Source of the DNA: Bifidobacterium subtile
Lineage (GTDB): Bacteria > Actinomycetota > Actinomycetes > Actinomycetales > Bifidobacteriaceae
Assembly: GCF_000741775.1 (NCBI RefSeq)
Contig: NZ_JGZR01000009.1
Span: 37,269-101,268 of the forward strand
Direction of reading: 5' to 3'
Length of the DNA: 64,000 nucleotides
Shown here: piece by piece, positions 48,304 to 64,000 of the stretch
How positions within the stretch are numbered: the stretch's first letter is position 1
How the letters are laid out: the number at the start of each line of letters is the position of its first letter
Position numbers and translations under genes: made by a program
The notes under the pieces: model-generated
The model's database searches: none
What the model was told of the DNA's origin: nothing
Seen by the model: only the letters and a program-made list of their open reading frames with translations

Positions 48304-49131
48304 TCATATCGTCGCACGTTGATTGACGAAATAGCCGACGATTGCGAGAACAAGGGAAAGAAGCCCGGTGCCGGCGATAAGCGTCCAAGATCCCCATGGC
48401 GTGAAGAAACGGATGACGGGATCGCTTTTCCAGATGAAAACGGCGAACAATGCCAAAAGCACGACGGCGGTTGCGATAAGCGACCAGGTCAGAGCCATTT
48501 GACCGAAGGAACGGAATATAGTGCCGAATGTCGCACCGGCCAGCAGCGACATCATCGACATGCCGAACACGACGAGAAACGCGATGCCGTAATTGCCGGA
48601 TCCTAGAATCGACACATCGAAGGCGTGGACGCCAAACCACCAATGATGGCTCAGCATCTCGCACGCCAAGGCGACGATGGTGAACAGGCCGGTGGCTAAC
48701 GAAGTTTCCAGAAAGCCGAGCATTGTGCCGAGCCAAAAACCGCGGCGTGTCGAGCCGAAGGCCAAGGCTGCGCCGAACTGACGGTTGGCGCACAGCGCTC
48801 CGACGACGATCAGGAAGCCCGGGAAGCTGAAGACCGAACCGAAGTTGCTGCTTGCGTTGTCCTCCTGAGTGGCAGCCGGCAGCGGCAAGCTCATTTTGAT
48901 GCCCATGAGCAACACAATGAGCGCACTGATGACCCAATACAATGCCAGAATATACAGCGGGACCAGCAGCGAATACTGTTTCTCTGCCATGTACTGGCCG
49001 GCTACGGCCTGGATGTTGCTGCGCTGGGCATCGGCGTCGCGTGCATGATTGCCGTCTTGCGTCCTTTGGGTTGGTGGTACGGGCAATGGCGAAGTTGAAA
49101 GTGCGGGTGCTGAGGGTGTTGCGGTGCTCAT
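48304..49131 (-). CDS. ABC transporter permease component
   Basis: 275 residues: a ~45-residue Pro/Thr-rich cytoplasmic N-terminus, then six membrane segments (LLVPLYILALYWVISALIVLLMG, VFSFPGFLIVVGALC, GTMLGFLETSLATGLFTIVALAC, YGIAFLVVFGMSMMSLLAGATFG, MALTWSLIATAVVLLALFAVFIW, SWTLIAGTGLLSLVLAIVG). Its start overlaps the ATPase stop by four bases, so both form one exporter. No substrate motif seen. Confidence 0.85.
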   Translation of the reverse strand: MSTATPSAPALSTSPLPVPPTQRTQDGNHARDADAQRSNIQAVAGQYMAEKQYSLLVPLYILALYWVISALIVLLMGIKMSLPLPAATQEDNASSNFGSVFSFPGFLIVVGALCANRQFGAALAFGSTRRGFWLGTMLGFLETSLATGLFTIVALACEMLSHHWWFGVHAFDVSILGSGNYGIAFLVVFGMSMMSLLAGATFGTIFRSFGQMALTWSLIATAVVLLALFAVFIWKSDPVIRFFTPWGSWTLIAGTGLLSLVLAIVGYFVNQRATI

Positions 49132-50183
49132 AGTGAGGCTCCTTGCAGGTTGGCAGTTGAATTCGCTGTTGGTTCGGGTGTTGGTTCGGCGGCCTTGTTG
49201 GCTGTTGAGCCAAGCCGCATATCGGCTTGCGGTTCAACGGCGCCGATGGCCGAGACGAGCTCCTGCAGCGTGGCATGACGCAATTCTCCGGAGCCGCCGG
49301 ACCGCAATGCAGCTGCTTGGCCAGCATTGGGCGTTCCGCGGAATATAATCGAGTACATCGCGCCAATCGAGGACTCGGAGAGGATATCCATGCCGGAAAG
49401 CGCTTGATGCGCTTGCGACTTCATCCCCGTGAAGCACCATGCTGTGGCAAGCGCATCCTCCACGCTGCTCGCGATGACGACATGGCCCTGATGCAGGATG
49501 GTCACGGTTTCCAGCAGGGCGGCGCATTCGTCGATCAGATGCGTCGACATGATGAAGGTGCGTGGATCCTCGGCTTGCGTTACTGCCAATGCTTCATAGA
49601 AGATTCCGCGGGCCGTAGCGTCCAGGCCGAGATATGGCTCGTCCAGGAACGTGTATTCGGCGTGTGACGACAGCCCTATGATGACCGCTAGGGCCGAGCG
49701 CTGCCCGCGGGACATTTTCTGTGCGCGCGTTGCACGGGGCAGTTCGAAGCGCTGCACTAGGGTTTGTGCCTGCTGTTCGTCCCATGTCGGGTAAAATCGG
49801 CGCGCCGAGGCGAGGATCATGCCGACGGTGTAGACGTCATGCCAGCGCTGGTTCTCATGGATGAAGCAGGTTCGGCCCAGAATCTCGGCGTTCTCCGTCG
49901 GATCGGCGCCATCGATGAGTACGGTGCCCGATGTTTTGAAGCTATGGTTGCACACGATGGACATGAGCGTGGTTTTGCCGGCGCCGTTTCTGCCGAGCAG
50001 ACCATGGATTTTGCCTTGCTCGAACGTAGCGGTCATATGGTCGAGCGCGTTGGTTCGCCCGTAGCGTTTCGAGCATTCGGTAACGGTTATGCCTGATGAC
50101 GTTGCAGTGGATGCTGTTTGCGTTGCGTCGGACGATGCGGTTGGTCGCGCGCCGCCGTCCCCGCGGTTCGATGTGTCTGTCAT
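49128..50183 (-). CDS. ABC transporter ATP-binding protein
   Basis: 351 residues, longer than usual at both ends. Walker A GRNGAGKTTL, a degenerate signature MSRGQRSALAV in place of LSGGQ, Walker B YTFLDEPYLGLD, switch His in FIMSTHLID. A ~50-residue Ser/Thr-rich N-terminus and a C-terminal extension of ~110 residues are of unknown use. GntR-family YtrA-type regulators typically control such exporters, and one lies 2 bp upstream. Confidence 0.9.
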   Translation of the reverse strand: MTDTSNRGDGGARPTASSDATQTASTATSSGITVTECSKRYGRTNALDHMTATFEQGKIHGLLGRNGAGKTTLMSIVCNHSFKTSGTVLIDGADPTENAEILGRTCFIHENQRWHDVYTVGMILASARRFYPTWDEQQAQTLVQRFELPRATRAQKMSRGQRSALAVIIGLSSHAEYTFLDEPYLGLDATARGIFYEALAVTQAEDPRTFIMSTHLIDECAALLETVTILHQGHVVIASSVEDALATAWCFTGMKSQAHQALSGMDILSESSIGAMYSIIFRGTPNAGQAAALRSGGSGELRHATLQELVSAIGAVEPQADMRLGSTANKAAEPTPEPTANSTANLQGASL

Positions 50184-50185
50184 GA

Positions 50186-50647
50186 TCAGTCTCTTTCTGA
50201 AGGGTATGAAGGTCGTGAAAGCTGTGCGTTGTCCGGCTGTGCCGTGTTGATGACGGCAGCTGGGTTCTTGTTGCTTCGCATATCGGCATCGCGTTGCCGT
50301 ATGGTCGCGACAATGTCGTCAATCGGGATGTCGAGCAGTCGTATCTCTTCGATCAGCGGGTCGACGTACGCCGCGGAAAGGCCTTCGATGCGCTCGCGTC
50401 GCAGCAGTTCCACGGCATCGGCCGTGACGAAGGTGCCGATGCCGCGGTGTTTCTCCAGCACTCCCCGCTCTGCAAGCTCGTTCAGGGCTCGGCCAGCGGT
50501 GATGGGATTGATCTTGAAGAACCCGGAAAGCTCCGTAGTTGACGGAACCTTGCTCCCCGCCGGATACGCTCCGCTCAGTATGCCGTTGGCGATGAATCTC
50601 GCCACGGCGAGAAATATCGGCTCCGACGATTGGGAGAACTCGTGCAT
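50186..50647 (-). CDS. GntR-family regulator, YtrA subfamily
   Basis: 153 residues from ATG 50647, with AAGGAGGA at ideal distance. The GntR winged helix spans ~10-75 (AVARFIANGILSGAYPAGSKVPSTTELSGFF, then ITAGRALNELAERGVLEKHRGIGTFV), and the short C-terminal dimerisation part is typical of the YtrA subfamily, which regulates ABC exporters encoded next to it. The stop is 2 bp before the ATPase start. The palindrome at 50692-50715 is its probable operator. Confidence 0.93.
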   Translation of the reverse strand: MHEFSQSSEPIFLAVARFIANGILSGAYPAGSKVPSTTELSGFFKINPITAGRALNELAERGVLEKHRGIGTFVTADAVELLRRERIEGLSAAYVDPLIEEIRLLDIPIDDIVATIRQRDADMRSNKNPAAVINTAQPDNAQLSRPSYPSERD

Positions 50648-50691
50648 GCCGTCCTCCTTCCTTCTGAGACGAGATTGCGGCAAACCTCAGT

Positions 50692-50715
50692 GGTTCACTA
50701 GTTGACTAGTGAACC
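50692..50715 (-). promoter_or_regulatory. Perfect palindrome, probable GntR operator
   Basis: GGTTCACTAGT and its exact reverse complement are separated by TG. It lies 45 bp upstream of the GntR start codon, where the operon promoter should be. Confidence 0.75.
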
Positions 50716-50848
50716 ATAGAAGTAGGGCATTGTCAACTCCATTGTCTCCCGATTGCCTGCCACAGGCAGTCTGCCCAACACGCTTTCAACCTCGCGATAG
50801 GCTCCGCCGACACGCCGATTTGACTGTGACGCGGCGTCAACGCATACG

Positions 50849-51622
50849 GTGAGCGACATGGAGCATTCAGCACATGATGTGTCGAAGTTAGCGGGCATCA
50901 GCACCCGCACGCTGCGGCACTATGACGCTATCGGGCTACTGCCGCCCAGCAGCGTTGGGGTCAACAAATACCGTTTCTACGATGACGCGGCGCTGGTTCG
51001 ATTGCAGCGTATTCTGCTGCTCCGGGAATTGGGATTCGGTCTGCGCCAAATCGCGACAATCCTGGACCATCAGAGCGACGTGGCGGCCGCGATGAAGACC
51101 CATGTGCAGCTTCTGCGCCGCGAGCAGCAGCGCTTGACCGAACAAATCGCCGCAGTCGAAAGGACTTTGGCGAGCGTGCAACAAGGAGGAACCCTGATGA
51201 CGGATACGATGTTCGCCGGCTTTGACCGGCACGCCGACTACAAGGACGAAGTAGAGCGGCGCTGGGGCAAGGATGCGTACCAACGGTCTGATGAATGGTG
51301 GAATGCGCTGAACGACACCGAAAAGGGCGACTGGAAGCAGCAGCTCGCATCACTCAATCAGGGATGGATCGCCGCGGCGCAGGATCCGAAAATCGCTCCG
51401 AATTCCGAGCTGGCGCAGAATCTGGCCCGTCGGCATATCGCATGGTTGCATTCGATTCCCGGCACTCCGGCGCATGATTCAACCCAAGACGGTGTCGAAC
51501 GCGACTACGTCCGTGGACTTGCCCAGATGTATGTCTGCGACGAACGCTTCGCCGCCAACTACGGCGGCATCGAAGGCGCGAAGTTCGTGCGCGATTCCCT
51601 GCTGACGTATCTTGGCGACTGA
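50849..51622 (+). CDS. MerR-family regulator with TipAS domain
   Basis: 257 residues; the ATG at 50858 is an alternative to the GTG at 50849. MerR helix-turn-helix at ~8-75 (VSKLAGISTRTLRHYDAIGLLPPS, RFYDDAALVRLQRILLLRELGFGLRQI), a coiled-coil linker (~80-115), then the TipAS antibiotic-binding domain (EVERRWGKDAYQRSDEWW, ARRHIAWLHSIPGTPAHDSTQDGVERDYVRGLAQMYVCDERF). TipAS proteins bind thiopeptides or other drugs and activate resistance genes. Divergent from the GntR-ABC unit. Confidence 0.92.
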   Translation: MSDMEHSAHDVSKLAGISTRTLRHYDAIGLLPPSSVGVNKYRFYDDAALVRLQRILLLRELGFGLRQIATILDHQSDVAAAMKTHVQLLRREQQRLTEQIAAVERTLASVQQGGTLMTDTMFAGFDRHADYKDEVERRWGKDAYQRSDEWWNALNDTEKGDWKQQLASLNQGWIAAAQDPKIAPNSELAQNLARRHIAWLHSIPGTPAHDSTQDGVERDYVRGLAQMYVCDERFAANYGGIEGAKFVRDSLLTYLGD

Positions 51623-51683
51623 GGGGGCTGCGCCTACCGCGCAGCGTTCTTTACCGCTCAGCGCCCCTACTACTCGACGTTCT

Positions 51684-52523
51684 TTACCACTCGATGCCGA
51701 GCATGGCGCAGCTGCGCTGCCAATGCTCGCTGATGATATTCGAATCGTAGGCCATTGGGTTCGTGCGGCCGATTCTGCGGGGCGAGATGTAGTATTCGCC
51801 CGATTGCCATGTTGTGCCGGCTTGTCCTGCGATAAAATGCCGCAGGCGCGCGCCGCCCTGGTCGGGCGTGCTCAGGAATCTGCGCAGCACGCTGTGATAA
51901 ATCTGTTGCATGTAGTTGTTGGAGTTAGCTGCGAAATTCGTGGCGACCACGCCCGGGTGGAAGGCGACCGCGGACAGACCGGATTCGTGGAAGCGCTCGT
52001 ACAGGCCCTTAGTGAACAGGATATTGGCGAGCTTGGCGTTGCCGTACGCCCTGTTGGCGGTGAAGCCGTGCCATGTGTTCAGGTCGTCGATGTCGAGGTT
52101 TCCATACATGCGGGCCGCGATGCTTGACGTGTTGATGACGGACGCGCGGCTGCCCACCAGCAGGTCTTTGAGCAGGAACGTGAGCAGGAAGGAGGCGAGG
52201 TGATTGACTTGGAAGGTCTTCTCGAAGCCGTCCACGGTAGTGACGGGGCCGGAGAACATGCCGCCCGCGTTGTTCGCCAGCACGTCGATGCGGCCGCAGC
52301 TCGACTGCAGCTCGGAAGCGAGTCTGCGCACATCATCCAGCCGAGTGTAATCGGCGATGTGATATTCGGCCCCGATGCCGTCGGCGACCGCCTTGGTTTT
52401 CTGCGGCGAGCGACCGACCAGAATCAGCCGTGCGCCGCTCGTGGCAAGCTGACGGCTCGCCGCCGCCCCGATGCCGTCGCTGGCACCGGTGATCACGATG
52501 GTTGCAGTGGAAAGATCGGTCAT
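51684..52523 (-). CDS. Short-chain dehydrogenase/reductase
   Basis: 279 residues from ATG 52523. Classical SDR: nucleotide motif TGASDGIG, NNAGG, and the catalytic YGNAK in NRAYGNAKLANIL. Resembles the retinol-dehydrogenase/WW-oxidoreductase type. Substrate unknown. Confidence 0.88.
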   Translation of the reverse strand: MTDLSTATIVITGASDGIGAAASRQLATSGARLILVGRSPQKTKAVADGIGAEYHIADYTRLDDVRRLASELQSSCGRIDVLANNAGGMFSGPVTTVDGFEKTFQVNHLASFLLTFLLKDLLVGSRASVINTSSIAARMYGNLDIDDLNTWHGFTANRAYGNAKLANILFTKGLYERFHESGLSAVAFHPGVVATNFAANSNNYMQQIYHSVLRRFLSTPDQGGARLRHFIAGQAGTTWQSGEYYISPRRIGRTNPMAYDSNIISEHWQRSCAMLGIEW

Positions 52524-52649
52524 ATGCGCCAGCGTTCTACGAGTACGAGTCAGTCGTGGAGCCGAACCTGACAAGTTCGGCTTGATGCTGTCCCCTATCG
52601 TAACAAGCGGGAGCGAACGATGATTTTCTTGTTCGACAGCCGGCAGTCC

Positions 52650-53366
52650 TCACTCTTGGTGACGAGACCGGCCCCGGTACTCAGCTAACGTTGAGCGTTG
52701 ATGTCCCTCAGTGTCGAAGTTGTCAGGCGAGAGCCAAGCCTCCAGAGCGGACCGGCACCCAGGCCAGTCAGCGTCGGTTATCGCCAGCCAGTCGGTGTCT
52801 CGGCTGCGCTGCTTGTACACGTGCGCGCTGCGGAAGGTTCCTTCGTACACGAAGCCGAGGCGTTCGGCCGCATGCCGCGAGGGGCCATTCAGACTATCGC
52901 ATTTCCACTCGCACCGCCGGTATCCGAGCCTGTCGAAGACGAGGGCGAGAAGCAAGGCGTGCGCCTCGGTGGACAGCCGAGTGTGCTGCATCCGCGGCGA
53001 GAAAGCGACCCATCCGATCTCGATGACCCCGCTCTCCGAATCCTGTCGCTGCAAGGAGAGTGTTCCGACCGGAGTATCGTCAACCCGGTCGATGACGGCA
53101 AAGAACAGCGGGTCGGCGGAATGCTCGACCGATCGCACATAACGCGCGTACTCGGCCTCGTCGGCGAACGGACCGATCCCAAGGTAAGTCCACAGGGCAC
53201 CGCCGGCAGGCTGATAGGCGGCGAACAGTCCCGCCGCATGCCGGTCGGCCGCGAGCGGTTCCAATCGGCAGTATTGCCCTTCCAGCGTCTCGCGCGTCGG
53301 CCGAGGACGGGGCGTCCAGCCGGGCAGCGCCTGCCCGATCTGCTGGCCATATTCGTTGACGGGCAT
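52650..53366 (-). CDS. GNAT acetyltransferase, RimJ/RimL type
   Basis: 238 residues. Visible RimJ/RimL features: LEGQYCRLEPLAADRHAAGLF, EIGWVAFSPRMQHTRLSTEAH, and the acetyl-CoA end LGYRRCEWKCDSLNGPSRHAAERLGFVYEGTFRS. Transfers an acetyl group to an unknown amine, protein N-terminus or drug. This is the last ordinary-looking housekeeping-type gene before the accessory region. Confidence 0.85.
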   Translation of the reverse strand: MPVNEYGQQIGQALPGWTPRPRPTRETLEGQYCRLEPLAADRHAAGLFAAYQPAGGALWTYLGIGPFADEAEYARYVRSVEHSADPLFFAVIDRVDDTPVGTLSLQRQDSESGVIEIGWVAFSPRMQHTRLSTEAHALLLALVFDRLGYRRCEWKCDSLNGPSRHAAERLGFVYEGTFRSAHVYKQRSRDTDWLAITDADWPGCRSALEAWLSPDNFDTEGHQRSTLAEYRGRSRHQE

Positions 53367-53586
53367 ATGCTGGGCTCCTTAAAAGTACGGCGGACGGATG
53401 GCCCCAAGCCTAATCATGTCAGCGGACGCATTTGCGACTGGCGGCTGCCTCGGGGGCAAAATCCAAAATACTCGCTGTCGACGCAACCGCTTTCATTAAT
53501 TCATGCAGGGCAACGTAGCGCATGGAGCGATGTCTTCATTCGTTAGGACTGCTGTTAGAGCGTGGGCCTCTTGCTACCGATTCGGC

Positions 53587-54309
53587 CTATGCGATGAACA
53601 CGTCAATATACGAGGGGTTGTGTTCGATGACATCTCGGATGTTTGTTCGGAGGTTCTCCAGTTTTCTTGTCACCGGCGAGTTCGGGTCATCGACGTCCGG
53701 CATGTACACGTCGATAAGAAAGTTCATGAGTCTGCCTACAGCCTGCAGATCATCGAGGCTTTCCCACGCCGGTATCGTGTTCCTAGTCACCCGGGCGGCG
53801 TCGCCCAGCGTCATATCCTCGTCGATGAGTTGCCCATAGCCTTTCAGATATGGAAGAAACTCGGTTTTCATATACACGACATAACCGTGACCGCTGTCGG
53901 TTCTGAAAGCGTAAGGCGGGGCGAACAGGCCGCTGATGAGGGTGAGCAGCTTGTTCCTGGTTTCGCGGTGCCCCTCCGACTCCGGTTTGTTCTTCGGAGT
54001 GTCCGAAAGTCGGCGTACGAACCAAGAGAACTGCTGCATCTCGGGTGCCGAAGGGGAATACAGGAAATCGGTGATCTTCTTCCAGGCCTCGGGTTTTTCG
54101 TGAGCCGCACCGTTCGCTTTCACCGCCATCCCTGTACTGCCTTTCCGCCCATAGCTTGAATATGCTTCATACGATATACTGCCTGGCTGAAGAAAAGACA
54201 ATACTGCGCTGACCCCGAAACCAACAGCATGCAAAAAGAGCCCAGCACGCACGTTTGCGTTCATCGGCGGAATTTCTCCCTTAACCCCATTGTCGCGTGT
54301 TTTGCTCAT
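53587..54309 (-). CDS. Hypothetical protein at the edge of the accessory region
   Basis: 240 residues, not recognised. A hydrophobic patch near residues 25-42 could be a signal or membrane anchor, and the rest is hydrophilic and helical (QQFSWFVRRLSD, LLTLISGLFAPPYAF, LDDLQAVGRLMNFLIDVYMPDV, LENLRTNIRDVI). No catalytic motif seen. It directly precedes the integrase-remnant module, so it may be cargo. Confidence 0.6.
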   Translation of the reverse strand: MSKTRDNGVKGEIPPMNANVRAGLFLHAVGFGVSAVLSFLQPGSISYEAYSSYGRKGSTGMAVKANGAAHEKPEAWKKITDFLYSPSAPEMQQFSWFVRRLSDTPKNKPESEGHRETRNKLLTLISGLFAPPYAFRTDSGHGYVVYMKTEFLPYLKGYGQLIDEDMTLGDAARVTRNTIPAWESLDDLQAVGRLMNFLIDVYMPDVDDPNSPVTRKLENLRTNIRDVIEHNPSYIDVFIA

Positions 54310-54361
54310 CCGAGCACGTTCTTCAACGCCATAATCTCAAAAGCTCGCAGCAGGTACAAAC

Positions 54362-54663
54362 GAAAAAGGCCGCCGGGGAACCGGCGGCCTTGAAGCTCCC
54401 GCAGCTGGGCTTGAACCAGCGGCATTTCAATTACCGGTTACCGACCATCGGCGTCTTCAGCCTGATGATTCATTGATGGACGCTTAAAAAGACAGTTGGC
54501 TCCTGCTTTCAATAATTTGCTATTAAGCCGGACTTTGATCCACTCCTGCATTAGCAAGCAGAAGTGGGCGGGCATGATCATTTGGAATACTAGATACACA
54601 ATCGCACACATAGGCCCCGGACCGGACCAGCAGCAGGCCATAGACTCGTGGATTGAATACCTC
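54362..54663. repeat. Direct repeat, copy A (putative att plus integrase 5' end)
   Basis: About 300 bp closely similar to 56045-56347: terminator, T-arm-like sequence, a conserved leader, and the first ~30 codons of the integrase. The two copies mark the ends of tandem modules. Attachment-site role is inferred. Confidence 0.85.
54363..54389 (-). terminator. Terminator at module 1
   Basis: GGCCGCCGG pairs with CCGGCGGCC across GGAA, followed on the minus strand by TTTTT. Next to it (54392-54424) lies a tRNA T-arm-like GCTGG-TTCAAGC-CCAGC sequence on the minus strand. The same pair occurs at 56046. Confidence 0.8.
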
Positions 54664-54711
54664 CTGCAACCTTCTCCTGGTCTTGCGCATGCGCGACAAA
54701 AATCAGGGTGA
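54574..54711 (+). pseudogene. Integrase remnant
   Basis: The first ~30 residues (MIIWNTRYTIAHIGPGP then QQQAIDSWIEYL) match the intact integrase at 56259. Then the sequence departs (LLQPSPGLAHARQKSG) and stops. All catalytic residues are missing. The upstream GC-rich ribosome site resembles that of the intact gene. Confidence 0.9.
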
Positions 54712-54821
54712 GCAACATTGATACGAGAGAAGGCCTGGCAATAGCTCCTGTGTCCCAGATAAGCAGCTAAGACGCAGAAGCAGCACACTGCAATATGGAC
54801 GGGCGGAACACTTTTCGTGCC

Positions 54822-55676
54822 CTATTGTCGTGAGCTGCGTCCGCGTCGCTTCAAACCGCTCTTCATTGAGTCAGAAAGCCTCATCTCCGCATTCTGCTGC
54901 ACTTGTTTAGTTGGGGCCTGTTTGAGAGTTTTATCCGTGCCGGCTGGTTCTAGGGAGTATTTCCTGTCGAGGCGCTGGTATTCCTCCGCGTTTAACGTGC
55001 GCCCGACGTTCGACTGCGTCCGGTACTCATCGTCCGACAGCATGCGCAGATCGGGGCCAGCCAGCAACGGCTCATCCAAAGGCCTGACAATCGTGTAGAA
55101 CATGCTCTCAAGCTTCGAATAATCAAGATTCTCCGCCGCCGCGATCGAAGCCATGTCATTGATCTGCCTGTTCACCAGACCCCAGTCGAAGTGCCATCCG
55201 GCATCATACAGCACGAGCTCCCAGAACAGGCGTTGCGTGCGACCGTTGCCCTCGCGAAAAGGGTGCAGCGTATTGAAATTGTCATAGTTCACGCTCAATC
55301 GCTCGATCAGCTGGTCTCGGGTCATGCCCTTGAACAGATTGTCCACGCGCAACGTGCTCTCGCAGTAGGCGATGCCCATATCCATGCGCTCAACGTAATG
55401 GAACGGCTGGCCGCCGCCCTTCGACATGTTGATCGTGCGAATCTCGCCAGCCCACGGGTAGACTCTGCGAAACAAAATGCGATGAATCCGCTGAAGCTGC
55501 GCGACAGTGCCCTCAGCCCGAGGAAGATCCCGGCGGATCCTCGCGACAGCAAGCGCAGACATTTCGCTTTCGAAATCAGAAAGAACCTGCCGGTCTTGGG
55601 TGCCAAGCAGGTTCTTCAACACTCGCGTCCCAGGAATGAGATACGGATCGAACGGCTCATCAAGGAAATCGGTCAC
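54822..55676 (-). CDS. Fic-family toxin (AMP/phosphate transferase)
   Basis: 284 residues from GTG 55676, overlapping the antitoxin stop by four bases (GTGA). The Fic motif H-P-F-x-E-G-N-G-R is at residues 138-146 (HPFREGNGRTQR), preceded by the helical Fic core (YPWAGEIRTINMSKGGGQPF, the flap FHYVERMDMG and DQLIERLSVNYDNFNTL). Fic toxins attach AMP to target proteins such as DNA gyrase. The C-terminal ~80 residues are charged and low-complexity. Intact here, unlike its paralogue. Confidence 0.92.
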   Translation of the reverse strand: MTDFLDEPFDPYLIPGTRVLKNLLGTQDRQVLSDFESEMSALAVARIRRDLPRAEGTVAQLQRIHRILFRRVYPWAGEIRTINMSKGGGQPFHYVERMDMGIAYCESTLRVDNLFKGMTRDQLIERLSVNYDNFNTLHPFREGNGRTQRLFWELVLYDAGWHFDWGLVNRQINDMASIAAAENLDYSKLESMFYTIVRPLDEPLLAGPDLRMLSDDEYRTQSNVGRTLNAEEYQRLDRKYSLEPAGTDKTLKQAPTKQVQQNAEMRLSDSMKSGLKRRGRSSRQ

Positions 55677-55861
55677 GAGACTTTGGCCTTGAACCGCGCA
55701 AGGGTCTTTCCCTCCCACTGGTCGATGTCAATCAGACCATTCACATAATCCCTGGCATCGCCCATAAACTCCGGGCTGACGCGGCCGCCCTCCATCTCCA
55801 CGGAATGCACGGCCTGATACACATCCTCGGCAAGCTTCTCCCTGGTCAACTGCACAGTCAT
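55673..55861 (-). CDS. VbhA-like antitoxin of Fic
   Basis: 62 residues from ATG 55861 with GGAGACAGG in front. The inhibitory helix motif (S/T)xxxE(G/N) appears as SVEMEG near residue 19-24 (QAVHSVEMEGGRVS). Such class I antitoxins place Glu over the Fic active site and block ATP binding. Co-expressed with the Fic gene by overlap. Confidence 0.9.
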   Translation of the reverse strand: MTVQLTREKLAEDVYQAVHSVEMEGGRVSPEFMGDARDYVNGLIDIDQWEGKTLARFKAKVS

Positions 55862-55963
55862 AAGCCTGTCTCCTCCATTCGGTTTCAACACAGTAGCGTC
55901 GATTATCTTCCTGCGGTCGGGAGCACTGCCTCAATTATGCACACCCCCTGAAAACATGCCTCT

Positions 55964-55969
55964 ATTATA
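55964..55969 (-). promoter_or_regulatory. -10 box of the antitoxin-fic operon
   Basis: Perfect TATAAT on the minus strand, ~100 bp before the antitoxin start. A palindrome (GGTTATAGGC ... GGCCTTTAACC, 55985-56010) lies just upstream and could bind the antitoxin or another repressor. A -35 box is not clear. Confidence 0.5.
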
Positions 55970-56044
55970 CCGTAGGAACCTTGGGGTTATAGGCAAATGG
56001 CCTTTAACCCACGATTCCTTGATGTCACAAATGGGCATAGATAT

Positions 56045-56347
56045 GAAAAAGGCCGCCGGGGGACCGGCGGCCGTGAAGCTCCCGCAGCTGGGCTTGAACC
56101 AGCGACATTTCGATTATCGATTGGTCACCATCGGATTTTTCAGCCTGCTGATTCATTGACGGGCGCTTGAAGTGATAGTTGGCCTCCGCTTCCAATAATT
56201 TGCTAGTAAGCCGGATTTTTGGTCCGTGGCTGCATTTGCAAACAGAAGGGGGGCGGGCATGATCATTTGGAATACCCGATACACAATCGCACACGTAGGT
56301 CCCGAGGCAAGCTGGCAGAAAGCCATAGACTCGTGGATCGAATATCT
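56045..56347. repeat. Direct repeat, copy B (putative att plus integrase 5' end)
   Basis: Second copy of the ~300-bp repeat at 54362, here continuing into the intact integrase. Differences are scattered substitutions, so the duplication is not recent or was gained independently. Confidence 0.85.
56046..56072 (-). terminator. Terminator at module 2
   Basis: GGCCGCCGG/CCGGCGGCC hairpin, TTTTT on the minus strand; same as 54363-54389. It lies 3' of a T-arm-like sequence at 56075-56107. Confidence 0.8.
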
Positions 56348-57170
56348 CAAAGGCCTGGGACACACACCGGAGACCATCAGGACCCGGTGGTATCAGATCA
56401 CAAGATTCTCCCGCATAGTCGGCATTCCTGCGGAGAACGTCATCGCTGACGACCTGATCTCATATCTCGCTGCTGCGGAACTGGGGCCGGAAGCGCGTCG
56501 CAGCCTGGTCAGCTGCATCCGAAGCTTCTACAAATGGGCGGTGACGCACAGTCTCGCCTGCGTCGATCCCACCAAGGACATCCCGACCATAGCGGTTCCC
56601 GAGCCCTCCGGTCTTATATGCCCGGAAAACGCCATCGAGAAGGCGCTTGCCTCGCCGGACGAGGACACGGTGCTCGCCGTCATGCTCGGCGCGTACTGCG
56701 GGCTGAGACGCCAGGAGATGACGCTGGTGAATCTACGAGACGACATATCCGACGACGACTACGGCATGACGCTGCTCATCCACGGCAAAGGCCGCAAGAA
56801 CCGCACGATGCCGGTGCCTAAGACACTGGCAGCTAAAATGGCGCAACGGCCGAAGGGCTTCCTTTTCCCCGGCAGAATAGACGGGCACGTGGGCGTTGAC
56901 TACGTGGCCAAAAGAATCAAACTCGCGACCGGATATCCCCCGCACAGCCTGCGTCGCCGGTTCGCTACCATAAGCTACTACCGTTCCGGCTGTAACCTTC
57001 TGCTGGTGTCACGCATGCTCGGCCACTCCAATGTGACCACCACCATGCGCTACATCGGTCTGCAGCAGGAACAGATGCGCAACACCGTCGAGGCGGCGAC
57101 CCGAATCGGCCTGCCGGAACTCGACGGCAGAAAGAACGAGACAGCAGCAACGATGTTCAGCATCGGCTGA
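56259..57170 (+). CDS. Tyrosine recombinase/integrase
   Basis: 303 residues from ATG 56259, with a GGGGGGCGGG site before it. N-terminal SAM-like domain 15-95, catalytic domain 120-285 with Arg150 (GLRRQEM), Lys in HGKGRKNRT, H229-x-x-R232 (HSLRRRF), His256 (LGHSNVT) and nucleophile Tyr265 (MRYIGL). All catalytic residues are present. Next to the repeated T-arm/terminator, it likely integrates the module by site-specific recombination. The fic and antitoxin genes follow convergently. Confidence 0.95.
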   Translation: MIIWNTRYTIAHVGPEASWQKAIDSWIEYLKGLGHTPETIRTRWYQITRFSRIVGIPAENVIADDLISYLAAAELGPEARRSLVSCIRSFYKWAVTHSLACVDPTKDIPTIAVPEPSGLICPENAIEKALASPDEDTVLAVMLGAYCGLRRQEMTLVNLRDDISDDDYGMTLLIHGKGRKNRTMPVPKTLAAKMAQRPKGFLFPGRIDGHVGVDYVAKRIKLATGYPPHSLRRRFATISYYRSGCNLLLVSRMLGHSNVTTTMRYIGLQQEQMRNTVEAATRIGLPELDGRKNETAATMFSIG

Positions 57171-57178
57171 AGAACTAT

Positions 57179-58042
57179 CTATCTTCCCCCTTCCCCTTTG
57201 CGGCTTCGGGGACTACTGGGGCGGGACAGCGAGTTCTGCGCTGGGTGTGCAGCGGTTCGCTTGGCCACTTCGGCGTTGAAGAATTCCTTGGCGGTCTGCT
57301 TCTTCGGGTTATCCGGTTCTCTCGCGTATTTTCTGTCAAGCCTCTGGTATTCCTCTGCAGTGAGTTTGCGGCTGACGTTCGGCTGCGTCCGGTATTCCCC
57401 GTCGATCATTGTCCGCAAATCAGGGCCGGCGAGCAATGGCTCGTTCAGCGGCTTGACAACGGTATCGAACATGCTCTCGAGCTTCGAATAGTCCAGATTC
57501 TCCATCGTAGCAATGGAGGCAGTGTCGTTGATCTGCTTGTTGATCAGACCCCAGTCGAAGTGCCAGCCGGCGTCATGTAGCACGAGCTCCCAGAACATGC
57601 GCTGTGTGCGGCCGTTGCCTTCGCGGAACGGATGCAAGGTGTTGAAGTTGTCGTAGTTCACACTCAGCCGCTCGATCAGTTGATCGCGTGACATGCCTCT
57701 GAACAGACTGTCATCACGCAGCATGCCCTCGCAGTAGGCGATGCCCATATCCATGCGTTCCACGTAGTGAAACGGCTGCCCGTCGCCTTTCGACATGTTG
57801 ATCGTACGCAACTCGCCGGCCCATGGGTAGATATCCTTGAACAGCATGCGATGAATCCAACGCAGCTGTTCCACTGTGCCCTCGCAGTGCGAAGGATTTT
57901 CGCGGATAAGGACAGCGCCTGCGGCGGACAGCTCATTCTCGTAAGCGGCTAGCTCCTCCTAGGTCTTGGCGCCTAGGAGATTCTTCAATACCCGAGTGCC
58001 GGGAATGAGATACGGGTCTAGCGGCGCATCGAACAGGCTCAT
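57179..58042 (-). pseudogene. Second Fic toxin gene with in-frame stop
   Basis: Starting at ATG 58042 (overlapping the antitoxin stop in ATGA), the first 27 codons encode MSLFDAPLDPYLIPGTRVL and KNLLGAKT, then TAG at 57961-57959. Reading continues in the same frame through a complete Fic domain, HPFREGNGRTQR included, to the end. At the matching place the other Fic protein has a Gln/Arg-type residue, so a CAG to TAG change is likely. An ATG-type restart near 57874 would give 231 residues with the catalytic motif but no N-terminal region. Confidence 0.9.
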
Positions 58043-58230
58043 CGAGCGTACTTCGCCTTCAGCCTGCTTTTGATTCGGTCCTTCCACTGGTCGACGTTGA
58101 TCCGGCCGTTCACATATTCTTTGGCCTCGGCCATGAACTCCGGGCTAACGCCGCCGCCCTCCATCTCCACGGAATGCACAGACTGGTACACATTCTCTGC
58201 AAGCTGCTCTCTAGTCAATTGCGTTGGCAT
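58039..58230 (-). CDS. VbhA-like antitoxin, second copy
   Basis: 63 residues, similar to the antitoxin at 55673 along its whole length (QLTREQLAENVYQSVHSV, inhibitory SVEMEG, PEFMAEAKEYVNG). AAAGGAG lies before the ATG. It remains intact although its toxin has a stop codon, as expected if losing the antitoxin first is lethal. Its upstream region is replaced by foreign AT-rich DNA ~30 bp from the start. Confidence 0.9.
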   Translation of the reverse strand: MPTQLTREQLAENVYQSVHSVEMEGGGVSPEFMAEAKEYVNGRINVDQWKDRIKSRLKAKYAR

Positions 58231-58262
58231 GATTGGCTCCTTTCGTTTTCCTGCTTATTTTA

Positions 58263-58613
58263 CATACCCGATTTAAACCACGTGCAACCTTTAATGCTGA
58301 TCTAAAACGGTTAGCCAGTTTAGACAAATCTATTATTGATGAAGTTCGAGCAGCCATTGACCTGTTGCTTGAGCAACAACAATTACCACCAGAATTTGAA
58401 GATCATGAGCTTAATCGGCGAATGAGCGGTTATAATGAATTTCACTTACGAGATACCCCGAAAAACAAAACACCAAGCGAAACTAACGATGTCCTGGTGG
58501 TTTATATAATTGATAAAGATGAACTAGTCTTAATTGAAATTCGAGTCGGATCGCATGATCGTTTATTTCCTGGTCAAAATCGTTCTAAAAGGTATCGAAA
58601 AAATGACGAATAG
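58263..58613 (+). pseudogene. YafQ-type toxin without its start
   Basis: The frame reads FKPRATFNADLKRLASLDKS, RAAIDLLLEQQQLPPEFEDH, ELNRRMSGYNEFHLRDTP and ends VLIEIRVGSHDRLFPG: a YafQ/RelE ribonuclease toxin, typical of lactobacilli, with the HDRLF end. Upstream the sequence becomes that of the Fic-antitoxin leader, so the first residues and the partner antitoxin (DinJ/RelB) are gone. No ATG in frame precedes the conserved part; TTG at 58233 is unlikely. Confidence 0.85.
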
Positions 58614-58641
58614 AAGAAGTCATTTTTATAATGTGAAAATA

Positions 58642-58682
58642 AATAACCCCTAATATCTACATTATAGATATTAGGGGTTATT
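58642..58682. terminator. Perfect 18-bp hairpin
   Basis: AATAACCCCTAATATCTA and its reverse complement, with a 5-nt loop, follow the YafQ stop; T-rich sequence on both sides suggests a bidirectional terminator. Confidence 0.85.
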
Positions 58683-58688
58683 CTTTCA

Positions 58689-58803
58689 ATGTTTTTGAGG
58701 GGCGATTTTATAATTAGTGCTGGTAAAGGATGCAGTGCCATTGCCAGCGCCGCTTATAGAAGTGGTGAAAAATTATTTGATAATCTAGAAGGCCGCCACT
58801 ATT
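58689..58803 (+). pseudogene. N-terminal fragment of a MobA/TraA relaxase
   Basis: SAGKGCSAIASAAYRSGEKL and then FDNLEGRHY match the start of MobA/TraA-type relaxases of Gram-positive plasmids. After GRHY the frame runs into unrelated MFS sequence in another frame. About 35 residues remain of a protein that normally exceeds 400. Evidence that the AT-rich segment came from a plasmid. Confidence 0.85.
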
Positions 58804-59967
58804 TGGTATTTGACCAAGAAAACCGGTTCAGCAACGGTATTGAGCATTGCTACTATTTTAGGAATGCTGCCAATGGTGATTCTTAGTCCGTTTGTTGGTC
58901 CTATGGTTGATCGGTGGAACAAAAAAGGCCTCCTAATTTTCCCGGACGTTTTTGCTGCCTGTTTTGCTATTATTCTTTCCGTATCCGGAACGGTCTTTCA
59001 TGTATTTCCACTTTGGCTCATTTTTATTTGATTACTGATGCGGTCTTGTGCGCAAACCTTCCAGATGCCAACGATTCAATCGGTAAAGCCCACAATGGTG
59101 CCAGACAAAGAAATTACCCGTATGAACGGCCAACTGGGAATGGTGCAATCCGCGAATATGATTATTGCCCCAGCACTGGGCGCGTTTTTATTTGCGTTTA
59201 TCCCCATCGAGTACTTGATTCTGTTAGACGTACTTGGGGCCATCATTGGGATTTGTATTTTAACGTGGGTTCAAATTCCTAACAATGAAAAAATTGATCA
59301 GCCAATGCATGTGCTCCACAACACCCGCTTGGGGATCAAACAACTTACGAACAACAAGGGCTTGTGGTACATTACGTTGATCGGCGCCGTCTTCACACTA
59401 ACCTACATGCCTGCTGCCAGCATGTATCCACTCATGACCATGAAATACTTTCAGGGAACCGTTAGTCAGGCTGGCTTAATTGAAGCCATTTATTCAACTG
59501 GCATGCTAATCGGCGGCACTATCATTGGCCTCTTTGGTAAGTGGCAGGACCGGATGAAGCCCGTAATCATCGCGTTTTTCCTGGTTGGCATTCCAACCGG
59601 TATTAGCGGCATTTTGCAAGGTAACCAAACCGGATTTTTATGGTTCGCAGCTTTAAACATCATTGAAGGAATTGCGACCCCATTTTTTACAACGCTTTTA
59701 ATGGCAATGATTCAACAAAGTTATCCAGCAGAAGAGTTAGGGCGGATTCTAGGCGTTTTGAATTCTTTGTTGAATCTAGCTGGACCAATTGGCTTAATTT
59801 TTGCCGGTCCCCTAGCTGATGTGATTGGCATTGAACGCCTATTTGTGATTGCAGGAATCGGTGCTGCCATTTGCGGGGTGGTCGCGGTGTTAATGCCAAT
59901 TACCAGGCAATATGACATTAGGCTGAATCAAAAATTGGCGAAATTAACTGAGCAACCAGATAAGTAA
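58801..59967 (+). pseudogene. MFS transporter, truncated and with internal stop
   Basis: The frame enters mid-helix (WYLTKKTGSATVLSIATILG) and lacks the first ~30-40 residues, which are replaced by the relaxase fragment. An in-frame TGA at 59029-59031 (FI-stop-LLMRSC) splits it into 58810-59031 and 59038-59967. The downstream part keeps eight or so membrane helices (IIAPALGAFLFAFIP, LWYITLIGAVFTLTYMP, ILGVLNSLLNLAGPIGLIFAGPLAD). Family: lactobacillar MFS exporters. Not expected to work. Confidence 0.85.
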
Positions 59968-59983
59968 TTAACATGATGATCAT

Positions 59984-60029
59984 AAAGAGGAGAAAGACCA
60001 GACTACCAGCTGATCTTTCTCCTCTTTTT
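59984..60029. terminator. Rho-independent terminator between convergent MFS and copB
   Basis: AAAGAGGAGAAAGA pairs perfectly with TCTTTCTCCTCTTT, followed by TT and flanked on the other strand by A-rich sequence, so it serves both convergent genes. Confidence 0.9.
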
Positions 60030-60041
60030 GTCATCACTTAA

Positions 60042-62279
60042 TTACACGTTTTTAATCTTTTCACCAGTCAATCCCATCGCATTAATTGCCACGATAATTG
60101 TCGACATCGCCATGACCGCAGCACCAACGGCTGGGTCTAGAATGATTCCAATAAATGACAACACACCGGCAGCGAGTGGAATTGCGACAATATTGTAGCC
60201 TGCTCCCCACCAGAGATTTTGAACCATTTTCCGATTTGTGATTTTAGCCAAATCAAGAAAATGTAAAATATCGCTGGGTTCTGATTTAACCAACACAACA
60301 TCAGCGGAATCAATGGCAACATCGGTTCCGGCGCCAATTGCAATTCCAATATCGGCCGCGGCAAGACTTGGTGCGTCATTTACGCCGTCACCAACCATGA
60401 TGACGTGATTGCCCTTTGCTTGATAATCAGCAATAATCTTTTGCTTATCATCTGGTAATAGGCCTGCATGGAATTCAGTCAATCCTAGTAAGTTAGCAAC
60501 GTGTTCCGCGGCTTTTGGATTATCGCCAGTGAGCATTACGGGGGTAATTCCTCGCCTCTGAAGACCACTAATTAATTCCTTAGCACCCGCTTTGATGGTG
60601 TCGCCTTCAGCAACCATTCCTTGAACTTGGGTGCCCTGCAATAGGAAGCTGACGGAATTACCCTTAGCAGCCCATTTATCAGCAGCGGCCTCGTCAAACC
60701 TGATCCCTTGCTTCGTTAAATAGTTACCATTAACAATCGTATAGTCAGTGCCATCAACATTACCGGAAATACCAACGCCCGGAATATTTTGAGACTTTTC
60801 AGCCGCAACGACTTCAATGTCCTTCGCTTGGGCTTCAGTAATGATTGCTTGGGCCAGCGGATGAGTCGAATTATTTTCAAGGGCGGCCAGTCGGCTTAAT
60901 AACGTTGTTTCGTCGATCCCATCATTTGGAATCAATGCATTCACCGTAAATTTACCTTCTGTTAACGTGCCAGTTTTATCCAAGAGAACGTGGCTAACAT
61001 GTTGACTTGCTTCAATGGCTTGGCGATTTCGAACTAATAGCCCATTTTGAGCGCCAATCGTAGTAGAACGAGAAACCACTAATGGAATCGCTAATCCTAA
61101 TGCATGCGGGCAAGCAATCACGAAGACGGTCACCATGATCGTCATTGCAGTCGCCAATCCCTGGGGTAACCAGGCAAAGAAAGCAACAATCCCAACACCA
61201 AATGCCGCGTAAAATAGATACTTGGCAACTAAATCAGCTTTATCTTCTGCTTTAGATTTAGCTTGCTGGGCATTTTGAACCATTTTCATTACTTGAGAAA
61301 GATAGCCGGAGTCACCAGTACCACTAATTTTAACCGTTAGCGTCCCGTTATTGTTGGTTGCACCACCAATGACCTTATCGCCAACGTTCTTGGTAACGGC
61401 AGCAGATTCACCGGTTACCAGTGCTTCATTCACGGTCGACTCCCCAGCCGTAATAACACCATCGGCTGGAATACTCTCACCTGAACGCACTTGGAAAACT
61501 TGACCAACTTTTAAATCAGATACTGGCACTTCTTTTGTTTCACCATTATCTGTAACTAGATGGGCCGTCTTAGGCAACAGGGCCGCCATCTTTTGTAAGG
61601 CATCCCCAGCCCCCATCAATGCATTCATTTCAATCCAGTGTCCTAGAAGCATAATTAAAATCAGGGTTGCAAGTTCGAACGAAAAATCCATTACATGATT
61701 TTCCGGGTTCAAGAAGTTGTTGGCAATAAATGCGTACAAACTGTAGAAATACGAAACGGAAATTCCAAGGGTTACTAGCGTCATCATTTCAGGAGATTTA
61801 TCCTGAATTTCCGCTTTAGCCCCCTTTAAAAATGGCATTCCGCCATAAAAGTAAAGTGCTGTATCAAACAAAACGATGATAATGCCAACAATTAGCGGTG
61901 AACTGAAACTAAGGATGGAAACGTTTAAACCCATGATTGGTGCTAACAGTAAAACTGGAATCGCTAAGACAACGGAGACCCAAAATTTAACTTTCAAATT
62001 CCCCATATGCATCATTGAGCCACCGTGCATCATCATGTCGGTCCCAGCCATATCCATATCACCATGATTCATGTTCATTTGGCTGTGATCCATGTTCATT
62101 TGACCATGATCCATTTCGGCCATATCGTGGTCCATGTTCATTTGATTATGATCCGTTTCGGTCATATCGTGATCCATTTTCATGTCATCATGATCCATAT
62201 GACTCATATTTGATTCATTATTTTCCATATTCTTAGCACTCATGTTTTTCATGTTCATATGGTCCTCTTTATTTGCCAT
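60042..62279 (-). CDS. copB: Copper-exporting P-type ATPase, CopB type
   Basis: 745 residues from ATG 62279 with AGGGGG in front. Residues 1-93 are Met/His/Asp-rich with 14-residue tandem repeats (MDHDM-type), a copper-binding tail. Then eight membrane helices, actuator TGES (289-292), the CopB-class CPH at 390-392 (ACPHALGLAIP), phosphorylation motif DKTGTLTEG (Asp434), the nucleotide-domain HP (STHPLAQ) and hinge GDGVNDAPSLAAADIGIA. Exports copper (probably Cu+/Cu2+) from the cell. Near-lactobacillar codon use. Divergent transcription is not seen; copY lies upstream on the same strand. Confidence 0.95.
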   Translation of the reverse strand: MANKEDHMNMKNMSAKNMENNESNMSHMDHDDMKMDHDMTETDHNQMNMDHDMAEMDHGQMNMDHSQMNMNHGDMDMAGTDMMMHGGSMMHMGNLKVKFWVSVVLAIPVLLLAPIMGLNVSILSFSSPLIVGIIIVLFDTALYFYGGMPFLKGAKAEIQDKSPEMMTLVTLGISVSYFYSLYAFIANNFLNPENHVMDFSFELATLILIMLLGHWIEMNALMGAGDALQKMAALLPKTAHLVTDNGETKEVPVSDLKVGQVFQVRSGESIPADGVITAGESTVNEALVTGESAAVTKNVGDKVIGGATNNNGTLTVKISGTGDSGYLSQVMKMVQNAQQAKSKAEDKADLVAKYLFYAAFGVGIVAFFAWLPQGLATAMTIMVTVFVIACPHALGLAIPLVVSRSTTIGAQNGLLVRNRQAIEASQHVSHVLLDKTGTLTEGKFTVNALIPNDGIDETTLLSRLAALENNSTHPLAQAIITEAQAKDIEVVAAEKSQNIPGVGISGNVDGTDYTIVNGNYLTKQGIRFDEAAADKWAAKGNSVSFLLQGTQVQGMVAEGDTIKAGAKELISGLQRRGITPVMLTGDNPKAAEHVANLLGLTEFHAGLLPDDKQKIIADYQAKGNHVIMVGDGVNDAPSLAAADIGIAIGAGTDVAIDSADVVLVKSEPSDILHFLDLAKITNRKMVQNLWWGAGYNIVAIPLAAGVLSFIGIILDPAVGAAVMAMSTIIVAINAMGLTGEKIKNV

Positions 62280-62311
62280 GATTATCGACCCCCTAAAAAT
62301 AAGTGTGCGTA

Positions 62312-62408
62312 GCAAAGCGGTTAGAAGCCGGAATATAAGTTCCTTGTGTGGAAATCCCCGGGCTCGGGATTTTTCCACCAGGTTCTTATATTTAGGCTTC
62401 TGCTTTGC
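62312..62408 (-). repeat. Long nested inverted repeat between copY and copB
   Basis: GCAAAGC ... GCTTTGC at the ends, then AGAAGCC/GGCTTCT, AATATAAG/CTTATATT and GTGGAAA/TTTCCAC inside, give a ~97-nt hairpin with few interruptions. It sits between copY and copB in the leader of copB on the minus strand, so it could terminate, attenuate or stabilise the copB message; or it may be a mobile remnant. Confidence 0.65.
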
Positions 62409-62529
62409 GGAGCACCATGCCACTATATAAATGAGAATTACGACAAAAATTCATAAATTTCCGCCATCAGAAATCCCAGATTCTGGATTTTTGTGCAGCA
62501 ATCCTAAAAGTAAACAGAACACCACAGTC

Positions 62530-62961
62530 TTAACACGTTTGATCACCTGGCAAGCAGTTACACTGAACTTCCTCGGGCGCTGTTTTGGCCTTTTCAGCTA
62601 GAATCGCCTGTAAGTTCGCAATATCCGCCCGTGAGAGTTCCCTTGACTGAATAACGCCGGCAATTGTTGAACCAGCCCGCATCGCACACATATGGTCAAA
62701 CAAATCATCTGCCGCTGCCACCATTGATTCCTTCTCGCCAACAACCGGCTTATACGTGAATGGTCGACTGCCGCCATGCTGCGCAACCGCCTGTTTTTGA
62801 ATCAACCTGTGAAGTAGCGTTTTGGTTGTTGAAGCTGACCAGCCTTCTAATTCGTTCATAGCATCGATTAGTTCACGACTAGTCGCATGTCCCATTGTCC
62901 AAATTGCTCTCACAACCATCCATTCAGAATCGGTGATGGTTACATTCTTTGCATCCTTCAA
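62530..62961 (-). CDS. copY: CopY/BlaI-family copper repressor
   Basis: 143 residues. BlaI/MecI-type winged helix (ITDSEWMVVRAIWTMGHATSRELI, TTKTLLHRLIQKQAV), then a helical dimerisation part, and a C-terminal metal hook CNCLPGDQTC (CxC...C) as in CopY of lactic-acid bacteria. Copper displaces zinc and releases DNA. Cop-box-like sites lie upstream at 62993-63033. With copB it forms the copper-resistance operon of the island. Confidence 0.93.
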   Translation of the reverse strand: MKDAKNVTITDSEWMVVRAIWTMGHATSRELIDAMNELEGWSASTTKTLLHRLIQKQAVAQHGGSRPFTYKPVVGEKESMVAAADDLFDHMCAMRAGSTIAGVIQSRELSRADIANLQAILAEKAKTAPEEVQCNCLPGDQTC

Positions 62962-62992
62962 TTGGCTTCCTCCATTAATTGAATTCTAAGTT

Positions 62993-63033
62993 TACGTTTG
63001 TAGCCTCCTAACGCTTATTAGTTTACAACCGTA
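62993..63033 (-). promoter_or_regulatory. Two cop-box-like CopY sites
   Basis: Two imperfect copies of TACAnnTGTA: TACAAACGTA on the minus strand (62993-63002) and TACAACCGTA on the plus strand (63024-63033). Both have a TACA half and an altered second half (CGTA). They lie 32-72 bp upstream of copY. Confidence 0.6.
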
Positions 63034-63106
63034 GTCACAATAATGCAACCTTTCTGCCAGAAAATACCATGACATTAAAAAAAGGATCTGGTGCAAAGCC
63101 CGTTGT

Positions 63107-63727
63107 CTAGATTGAAGTGCAACACCGTGGCTGGTGAGGTAAGTTTAGCAGTTCCTGCTGGTAGGCTTCGGCGGGTGTCTGGTAGCCGAGCAGGCGCATG
63201 GGCCGGTTGTTGATCTCGTTGACGATCGCCTGCAGCTCGTCGGCCATGTCCGGGGTGATTCTGCCGCCTTTGGGCAGGTAGCGGCGTAGCATGCCGTTCC
63301 TGTTCTCGTTGCTTCCGCGCTGCCAGGAGCTGTACGGGTCGGCGAAGTAGGTCAGCATGCCCAGGGCCTCCACGAGCGTGGAGTGGCCGGCGAACTCGGT
63401 GCCGTTGTCGTATGTGACGCTCCGGCGCGCCGGGGCCGGCAGCGGCGAGAATATGCCCAGTTGGGCGACGATGGTGCCGGCCGCGCCCTTGTCGGGGATG
63501 ATGCGGGCCTTGAGGTATCGGGTCCTGCGTTCGACCTCGGTGTGCAGGTGGCAGCCGACGCTGATGACGCTGTCCGCCTCCCAGTGGCCGAACTCCCCGC
63601 GGTCGCTGGCGCATGCCGGGCGATGCCCGATGCCCACGCGTAGGCTGATGGGCGAGCCGTGCACGCGCCTGCCGCCGCGTTTCCGGCGTCTGCGGTGGGC
63701 GCGCGGCAGGTACTGTGTTTTTAGTCA
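63107..63727 (-). pseudogene. IS30-family transposase, 5' end lost to an IS21-type insertion
   Basis: The C-terminal ~200 residues of an IS30 transposase with catalytic GHWEADSV (Asp), YDNGTEF (Asp) and SNENRNGMLRRYLPKG (Glu). The frame from YLPRAHRRRRKRGGRR upstream meets a stop at 63727, just inside the neighbouring IS21-type sequence, so the N-terminal DNA-binding part is cut off. High-GC bifidobacterial codon use returns here. The stop codon is followed by a terminal-repeat-like sequence (GTGCAA ... TTGCAC type) at ~63085-63125. Confidence 0.88.
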
Positions 63728-64000
63728 AGTTGGTTTTTTGTGGTTGGTCACTTATTTTTTTCGGGTTTCGGCGTGGAGCGTGCTGTTGGTTATTGGTTGT
63801 GGATTTCCTTGCCGAACATGAGGCTTCGCTCACGCGCCGGCTTGGTCCGGTGAATTCGATGAGGCGGCCGTGGTGGACGATGCGGTCGATGATCGCGGCG
63901 GCGAGTTTGTCGTCGGCGAAGATCGTGCCCCATTTGCTGAACTCGATGTTGGTGGTGAAGATGATGCTTCTTCTCTCGTAGCTGCCGGTGATGATCTGGT
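63728..64000 (-). CDS. istB: IS21-type IstB helper ATPase (partial, continues past the right edge)
   Basis: The C-terminal part of IstB: ERRSIIFTTNIEFSKWGTIF, ADDKLAAAIIDRIVHHGRLI, EFTGPSRR. IstB helps the IS21 transposase IstA choose targets; its 5' part and istA lie outside the window. The frame does not stop at the element end and runs on through the IS30 gene to 63075. A 7-T run at 63755-63761 (seven A in the coding sense) precedes the expected stop: with six A the frame would end in TAA, so a one-base change there may have extended the protein. Confidence 0.88.

Follow-up and report, generated by a model that had tools for sequence, protein, structure and literature searches.

Here we describe a predicted copper-export operon, copY-copB, carried on a 64-kb stretch of DNA of the genus Bifidobacterium (the window, i.e., the whole of the sequence under analysis). 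This operon, placed under the control of a CopY repressor, seems to have originated in a lactobacillar plasmid; it is likely to have entered Bifidobacterium once, and then to have been passed, probably, between species by bifidobacterial insertion sequences. On all the sequence evidence at hand, the capture itself is real. Beyond what an initial annotation of this DNA had proposed, the operon is also found, with other edges, in B. mongoliense DSM 21395 and B. psychraerophilum LMG 21775. Events of this type are already known; what stands out here is the distance between the phyla, how recent the transfer is and its spread within the genus.

A Plasmid-Type Segment in a Bifidobacterial Contig

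The window is the final part of a 101,268-base contig (C9), in a genome of 2,790,088 bases and 27 contigs, and the contig stops at the window end, about 0.9 kb past the captured segment, whose limits were set by alignment to plasmids (Table 1). The mean GC content of the segment is 0.435, with a maximum of 0.466 (500-base windows, n = 17), against a mean of 0.605 (sd 0.038, n = 234) outside it in the same 64 kb, where only two such windows, 2751 and 15251, fall below 0.48. Likewise, GC3 amounts to 0.41 in copB, 0.45 in copY and 0.50 in the remnant of the MFS transporter, versus 0.74-0.88 in five neighboring genes. Both profiles bear out the AT-rich composition and the different codon use pointed out in the initial annotation; the edges that it had drawn at 58262 and 63075 are real boundaries, although the plasmid alignment puts each of them 8 bases off.

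TABLE 1. Features of the captured segment and its flanks, numbered along the window, and locations of the metal island.
Feature	Position	Strand	Remarks
XerC-like tyrosine recombinase, left flank	56226..57170	+	
Bifidobacterial Fic/VbhA locus, left flank	57179..58263	-	Fic 57179-57874, VbhA 58039-58230; 87% identity to relative G102 as far as 58263
yafQ toxin frame	58233..58613	+	residues 5-118 of plasmid toxin kept (58269-58610); first four codons and antitoxin gene gone
Lactobacillar-plasmid-type segment	58270..63083	.	98.6-98.7% over full length vs S. malefermentans, L. backii and S. paracollinoides plasmids
MobQ relaxase stub	58689..58886	+	family likeness only in first ~30-40 residues
MFS (Mef-like) transporter remnant	58717..59967	+	stop near 59.03 kb interrupts frame
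copB, CPH-type copper P1B-ATPase	60042..62318	-	758 aa, Met/His-rich N-terminus; open frame; TIGR01511 595.9 bits, cut-off 397
42-base repeats encoding the Met/His-rich N-terminus of CopB	62064..62210	-	length differs among copies
copY, copper-responsive repressor	62530..62961	-	143 aa, tail CNCLPGDQTC; open frame; TIGR02698 137.8 bits, cut-off 121.95
Promoter region, two cop-box-like sites	62993..63033	-	62993-63002 and 63024-63033, minus-strand TACAAACGTA and TACGGTTGTA
~15 bases between plasmid-type DNA and IS30	63084..63098	.	no assigned origin
IS30 fragment	63099..63713	-	terminus and C-terminal transposase 63107-63664
IS21 end, istB side	63714..64000	-	cuts IS30 at ~63714; contig end
Metal island	L027:3147-7922; L174:823-5594; L178:2322-6846; L176:228-4820		

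In a BLAST search, 375 of 72,556 plasmid records match the segment. The best match is found in Secundilactobacillus malefermentans (NZ_CP042373.1, 98.7% over 4823 bases), followed by Loigolactobacillus backii (NZ_CP014896.1) and S. paracollinoides (NZ_CP014930.1), both 98.6% identical over about 4.8 kb, and the organisms with most matching records are Lactiplantibacillus (196), Pediococcus (33), Levilactobacillus (28), Latilactobacillus (20) and Listeria (16). By comparison, CopB proteins of more distant Firmicutes, among the best 80 of 583 relatives, are 50-60% identical. Since the identity to lactobacillar plasmids lies far above family similarity, the phylum-crossing transfer from Lactobacillales-type plasmids that had initially been suggested is well supported. 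Its direction would be from Lactobacillales to Bifidobacterium, given the AT-rich composition and the many plasmid homologues.

Two other relatives deserve mention. Faecalicatena absiana, a gut organism outside Lactobacillales, has a copy (L051:9362-12272) with a CopB 94% identical and DNA 97-98% identical, and could be seen as a further distant recipient. Alloscardovia criceti (L076), which belongs to the family of Bifidobacterium, has a CopB 50% identical to the imported one, to which it is distantly related.

The segment contains the genes initially listed for it, i.e., YafQ, the start of a relaxase, an MFS transporter, CopB and CopY, but the relaxase is a stub only, the MFS frame is interrupted and yafQ is truncated. 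Indeed, damage in the window copy hits every gene but copY and copB, and the toxin, relaxase and MFS pieces would be passengers. In the plasmids, an antitoxin gene is located ahead of yafQ. The intact MFS gene of NZ_CP042373.1 encodes 416 residues, and the idea that the plasmid gene was itself some 100 residues short was dropped on that account.

Junctions and Flanking Sequences

On the left side, the Fic/VbhA locus is shared with the relative G102, which beyond the equivalent of position 58263 runs on to tRNA-Asn and tsaD, while the window has plasmid-type DNA from 58270, inside yafQ. The window genome keeps an intact tsaD site on another contig (C7), and the window itself contains two fragments of the tRNA-Asn side, at 54364-54433 and 56032-56116. 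A site-specific insertion of the segment at these att-like fragments was considered; the break falls at 58263-58270, where G102 continues, yet no crossover site was recognized there and this option was discarded. Independently of the segment, the region 54364-58263 comprises two Fic/VbhA units, 76-84% alike, with tRNA-Asn-side fragments and the XerC-like recombinase, and these units are likely to constitute an integrative element using tRNA-Asn; in G102, a single Fic/VbhA unit adjoins tRNA-Asn and tsaD. A plasmid location of the window locus is unsupported: the contig carries a trpE-like gene, and, for positions 45000-58269, the 5 matches among 72,556 plasmid records extend over just 47 bases.

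Beyond the right edge, IS30 and IS21 sequences resume as initially described, from about 63099 and 63714 respectively. The IS30 fragment shares 99% identity with B. mongoliense DNA, and its terminus is an inverted-repeat end identical to both ends of a B. mongoliense copy. The IS21 end recurs at eight other places in the genome (100% over 65-67 bases), several of them being contig starts. This repetition limits assembly and would explain why contig C9 stops at IS21.

The draft state of the assemblies, this nearby contig end, the small size of the contig holding the B. mongoliense copy (contig 15, 4222 bases), and the three assemblies, which may stem from one laboratory, could all evoke contamination or a misassembled chimera. 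Nevertheless, such an artifact is very improbable. Neither junction falls in a sequence that has a second close copy elsewhere in the window genome (for IS30, the next best is 74% identical over 229 bases), and in B. psychraerophilum 10 kb of flank are present on the same contig. Moreover, the copies differ from one another and from the plasmids and yet share private sites, a pattern that cross-contamination would not give, and the recurrence of the segment in two more Bifidobacterium genomes, both of them named, speaks against a one-off chimera.

The copY-copB Operon and Its Candidate Operator

On the minus strand, copY is followed by copB. The motifs of the ATPase are complete in the window copy (CPH, DKTGTLT, TGES, HP and GDGVNDAP, at residues 403, 447, 302, 486 and 643), copper ATPases of the PDB match it at E 2e-117 and weaker, and the CPH motif together with a TIGR01511 score above the cut-off agrees with the CPH type initially assigned to CopB. 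As for the repressor, the classical metal hook at the C-terminus of CopY/TcrY consists of four cysteines, CxCx4CxC. This hook is absent in the window CopY, whose tail, CNCLPGDQTC, presents three of the four, so that the C-terminal Cys hook previously claimed stands as a cysteine-bearing tail and not in its classical form. The same tail is found in 39 of 42 aligned copies, the remaining three being out of frame in the cut; it would thus be a property of the subgroup, rather than damage in Bifidobacterium.

The cop box consensus is TACANNTGTA, as given in the accessible text of PMC7253601. Each of the two candidate boxes is one base off this consensus in all three bifidobacterial copies, while at least one perfect 10-base box exists in 33 of the 39 other copies and none in the remaining six. 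Since all three lack a perfect box, regulation may differ in bifidobacteria. Weaker repression would be a possibility only: the same source, in its accessible part, describes the ten-base box as necessary yet insufficient by itself and, for single operators, reports KACANNYGTA (PMC7253601).

Copper export by the operon is predicted, from what is known of the family and by analogy with the CopR/CopB of Lactiplantibacillus plantarum, for which cop box binding, copper response and copper protection are reported in the accessible part of PMC5651008. Without copper, CopY, acting at the cop boxes, would keep the operon shut off; copper would lift this repression, and CopB would pump the metal out. 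In the window genome, contig C7 holds another copper-type ATPase frame, which also exceeds the cut-off of the family, and the import would therefore add to copper export, rather than found it.

Could the operon lie silent in the window strain, as a relic, and not act as a working pump? The passengers are broken, both cop boxes depart from the 10-base consensus, promoter and codon use are foreign, and 12 of the 19 changes that the bifidobacterial copies show in coding sequence, the repeat set aside, replace an amino acid, which suggests that purifying selection is weak or that the time has been too short for a signal. However, the frames of copB and copY are open in the three bifidobacterial genomes, and the ATPase motifs are complete in the window copy, where the passengers are not intact. 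We consider a relic unlikely, and a putatively functional operon remains the reading that we retain.

Copies in Other Bifidobacteria and Their Descent

In genus and class scans based on one genome per species, with at most two candidates scored per genome, a near-identical long copy was found in 2 of 112 Bifidobacterium genomes, the window's own and that of B. mongoliense DSM 21395 (G050). Some match at E <= 0.001 exists in 27 of the 112, and apart from those two they are short or 64-88% identical; across the class, at E <= 1e-30, only the window's own genome matches among 394. A scan of genome contigs with CopB, considering the best 80 of 583 relatives, among which the window's own record does not figure, retrieved B. 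mongoliense DSM 21395 (98%) and B. psychraerophilum LMG 21775 (97%), the rows L004 and L020 yielding identical figures. The search of other bifidobacterial genomes, initially recommended as a check, was thus productive, both strains having the segment. Viral contigs gave no match to the junction between ISL3 and the copper operon, nor to a copY stretch with the bifidobacterial base. Among the titles and abstracts listed, which cover few subscription journals, none reports this operon in Bifidobacterium, and the word "copper" is absent from the main text of a mobilome paper (PMC6956390).

The edges of the segment are identical in B. mongoliense and B. psychraerophilum (59370-63065/63066), and unlike those of the window. 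On the copY side lies an ISL3 element, complete in B. psychraerophilum (L027 7923-9252, with a transposase recognized by Pfam) but only partly present in B. mongoliense (L004), and on the MFS side the start of an IS3-type element; the window copy is not linked to ISL3. The 7-8 bases on either side of ISL3 in B. psychraerophilum do not match, as judged by eye, which argues that ISL3 did not simply hop into the segment. A composite transposon, with equal ends and target duplication, was ruled out, the edges being ISL3 and IS3 in these two species and Fic/VbhA and IS30 in the window.

A tree was built from 42 copies (the window's and 41 others), cut to window positions 60042-63063 (2860 of 3116 columns). 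It sets the three bifidobacterial copies on one side of a branch with moderate support (80/89), present in 82% of 200 bootstrap trees, and pairs B. mongoliense with B. psychraerophilum (100/97). Furthermore, a comparison of these three with 38 others (L039 excluded) yields 33 sites where one or more bifidobacterial copies deviate from the majority: all three at five (61702, 62457, 62913, 63008 and 63030), B. mongoliense and B. psychraerophilum alone at seven, the window alone at seven, and the window with B. mongoliense only at four, all of them in the Met/His repeat. Two of the five common bases, at 61702 (CopB A206E) and 62913 (CopY M17V), are private, occurring in 0 of the 38 others, and the rest are also seen elsewhere (62457 in 4/34, 63008 in 2/38, 63030 in 3/38).

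Altogether, the shared private sites and the tree favor a single import, rather than several, without proving it. Two separate imports from similar plasmids, one into the window lineage (58270-63083) and another into that of B. mongoliense and B. psychraerophilum (59370-63066), would account for the different edges and flanks, for the moderate support of the three-member group, and for the fact that the window copy is no farther from some lactobacillar ones (L019, with 20 mismatches over about 3.43 kb) than from that of B. mongoliense (23 in about 3.7 kb). Nevertheless, this scenario appears improbable in view of the two substitutions common to the trio and absent in 38 copies, of the frequency with which bootstrap trees keep the trio together, and of the shorter edges lying wholly within the longer ones, as a trimmed single import would give.

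After such a single import, the operon would have spread within the genus. Over about 3.7 kb, and omitting gaps, which are mostly in the repeat, the window copy differs from that of B. mongoliense at 24 bases and from that of B. psychraerophilum at 33, these two differing at 14. In turn, when tsaD is compared, the window genome shows 74% identity to both species, 73% to another Bifidobacterium genome (G049) and 90% to G102. Since the operon is about 99% identical where tsaD is only 74%, it must have moved sideways within the genus. An identity of 98.6-98.7% to plasmids of another phylum between unrelated flanks, together with this discrepancy among bifidobacteria, corresponds to recent horizontal transfer.

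ISL3 and a Heavy-Metal Island

In B. psychraerophilum, ISL3 joins the copper operon to a metal island, which comprises a P-type ATPase, a Crp-type regulator and a 195-aa protein without Pfam match. At more than 99% identity, this island is also present in B. mongoliense, on contig C4 of the window genome, and in G049; leaving G049 aside, the three copies are about 99.5% identical, with 17-23 mismatches in 4492 bases, of which 22 and 23 separate the window genome from B. mongoliense and B. psychraerophilum, respectively. Two ISL3 pieces enclose the island in the window genome, and an ISL3 end borders it on each side in B. mongoliense; in the latter, island, ISL3 and copper contig would be joined as they are in B. 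psychraerophilum. G049 has the island, and a close copper copy is absent from it in the genus scan.

These arrangements suggest the following succession: the plasmid operon of a lactic acid bacterium would have reached Bifidobacterium in one horizontal transfer, and bifidobacterial insertion sequences, with ISL3 and the adjoining heavy-metal ATPase island as the presumable carrier, would have spread it among species. A broader idea, which we advance tentatively and which may well prove wrong, is that Bifidobacterium owns a circulating multi-metal unit, in which the ISL3-associated island acquired the copper operon from plasmids of lactic acid bacteria and transports it among distantly related species, the operator having drifted and only pump and repressor being kept; in the window genome, the two halves would lie apart, on C4 and C9.

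Two more heavy-metal ATPase frames are present in the window genome, on contig C23 (L172, 60-73% GC). Four of 72,556 plasmid records match this contig, all of them actinobacterial (Corynebacterium, Cryobacterium and Microbacterium, 73-78%), and lactobacillar DNA was not found among these matches.

Significance

With about 99% identity, the gene flow from Bacillota to Actinomycetota implies an exchange so recent that food, feed and gut settings become relevant. In this regard, B. mongoliense is listed from fermented milk and B. psychraerophilum from pig caecum, according to the accessible part of PMC5449479. DNA that enters Bifidobacterium can pass on among its species, and, as lactic acid bacteria and bifidobacteria are both used in foods, transferable traits there constitute a safety question. 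The segment also provides an exact marker, testable by PCR.

Comparison With Known Systems

The cop operon of Enterococcus hirae, also covered in the accessible parts of PMC7253601 and PMC5651008, shares with the window segment a CopY repressor, a CopB ATPase and two operator boxes upstream of copY, those of the segment being candidates; the segment differs from it in having neither copZ nor copA, three cysteines in the CopY tail, and imperfect boxes. The CopR/CopB system of L. plantarum CAUH2 is similar in its CPH-type copper ATPase with a Met/His-rich N-terminus, its CopY-family repressor and its cop box, of which the window has two candidate sites; however, its copR and copB are separate and differently arranged in the accessible part of the report (PMC5651008), whereas copY and copB of the window are consecutive, on one strand, and included in a mobile segment. 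The closest system is the copYB of Lactobacillaceae plasmids (NZ_CP042373.1, pL11992-6 and pL11995-6), with the same gene order, 98.6-98.7% DNA identity, the same CopY tail and the same yafQ, relaxase stub and MFS passengers. Compared with it, the window segment is devoid of antitoxin and plasmid replication genes, its MFS is interrupted and its second candidate cop box is changed, and the whole copy lies between bifidobacterial Fic/VbhA and IS30.
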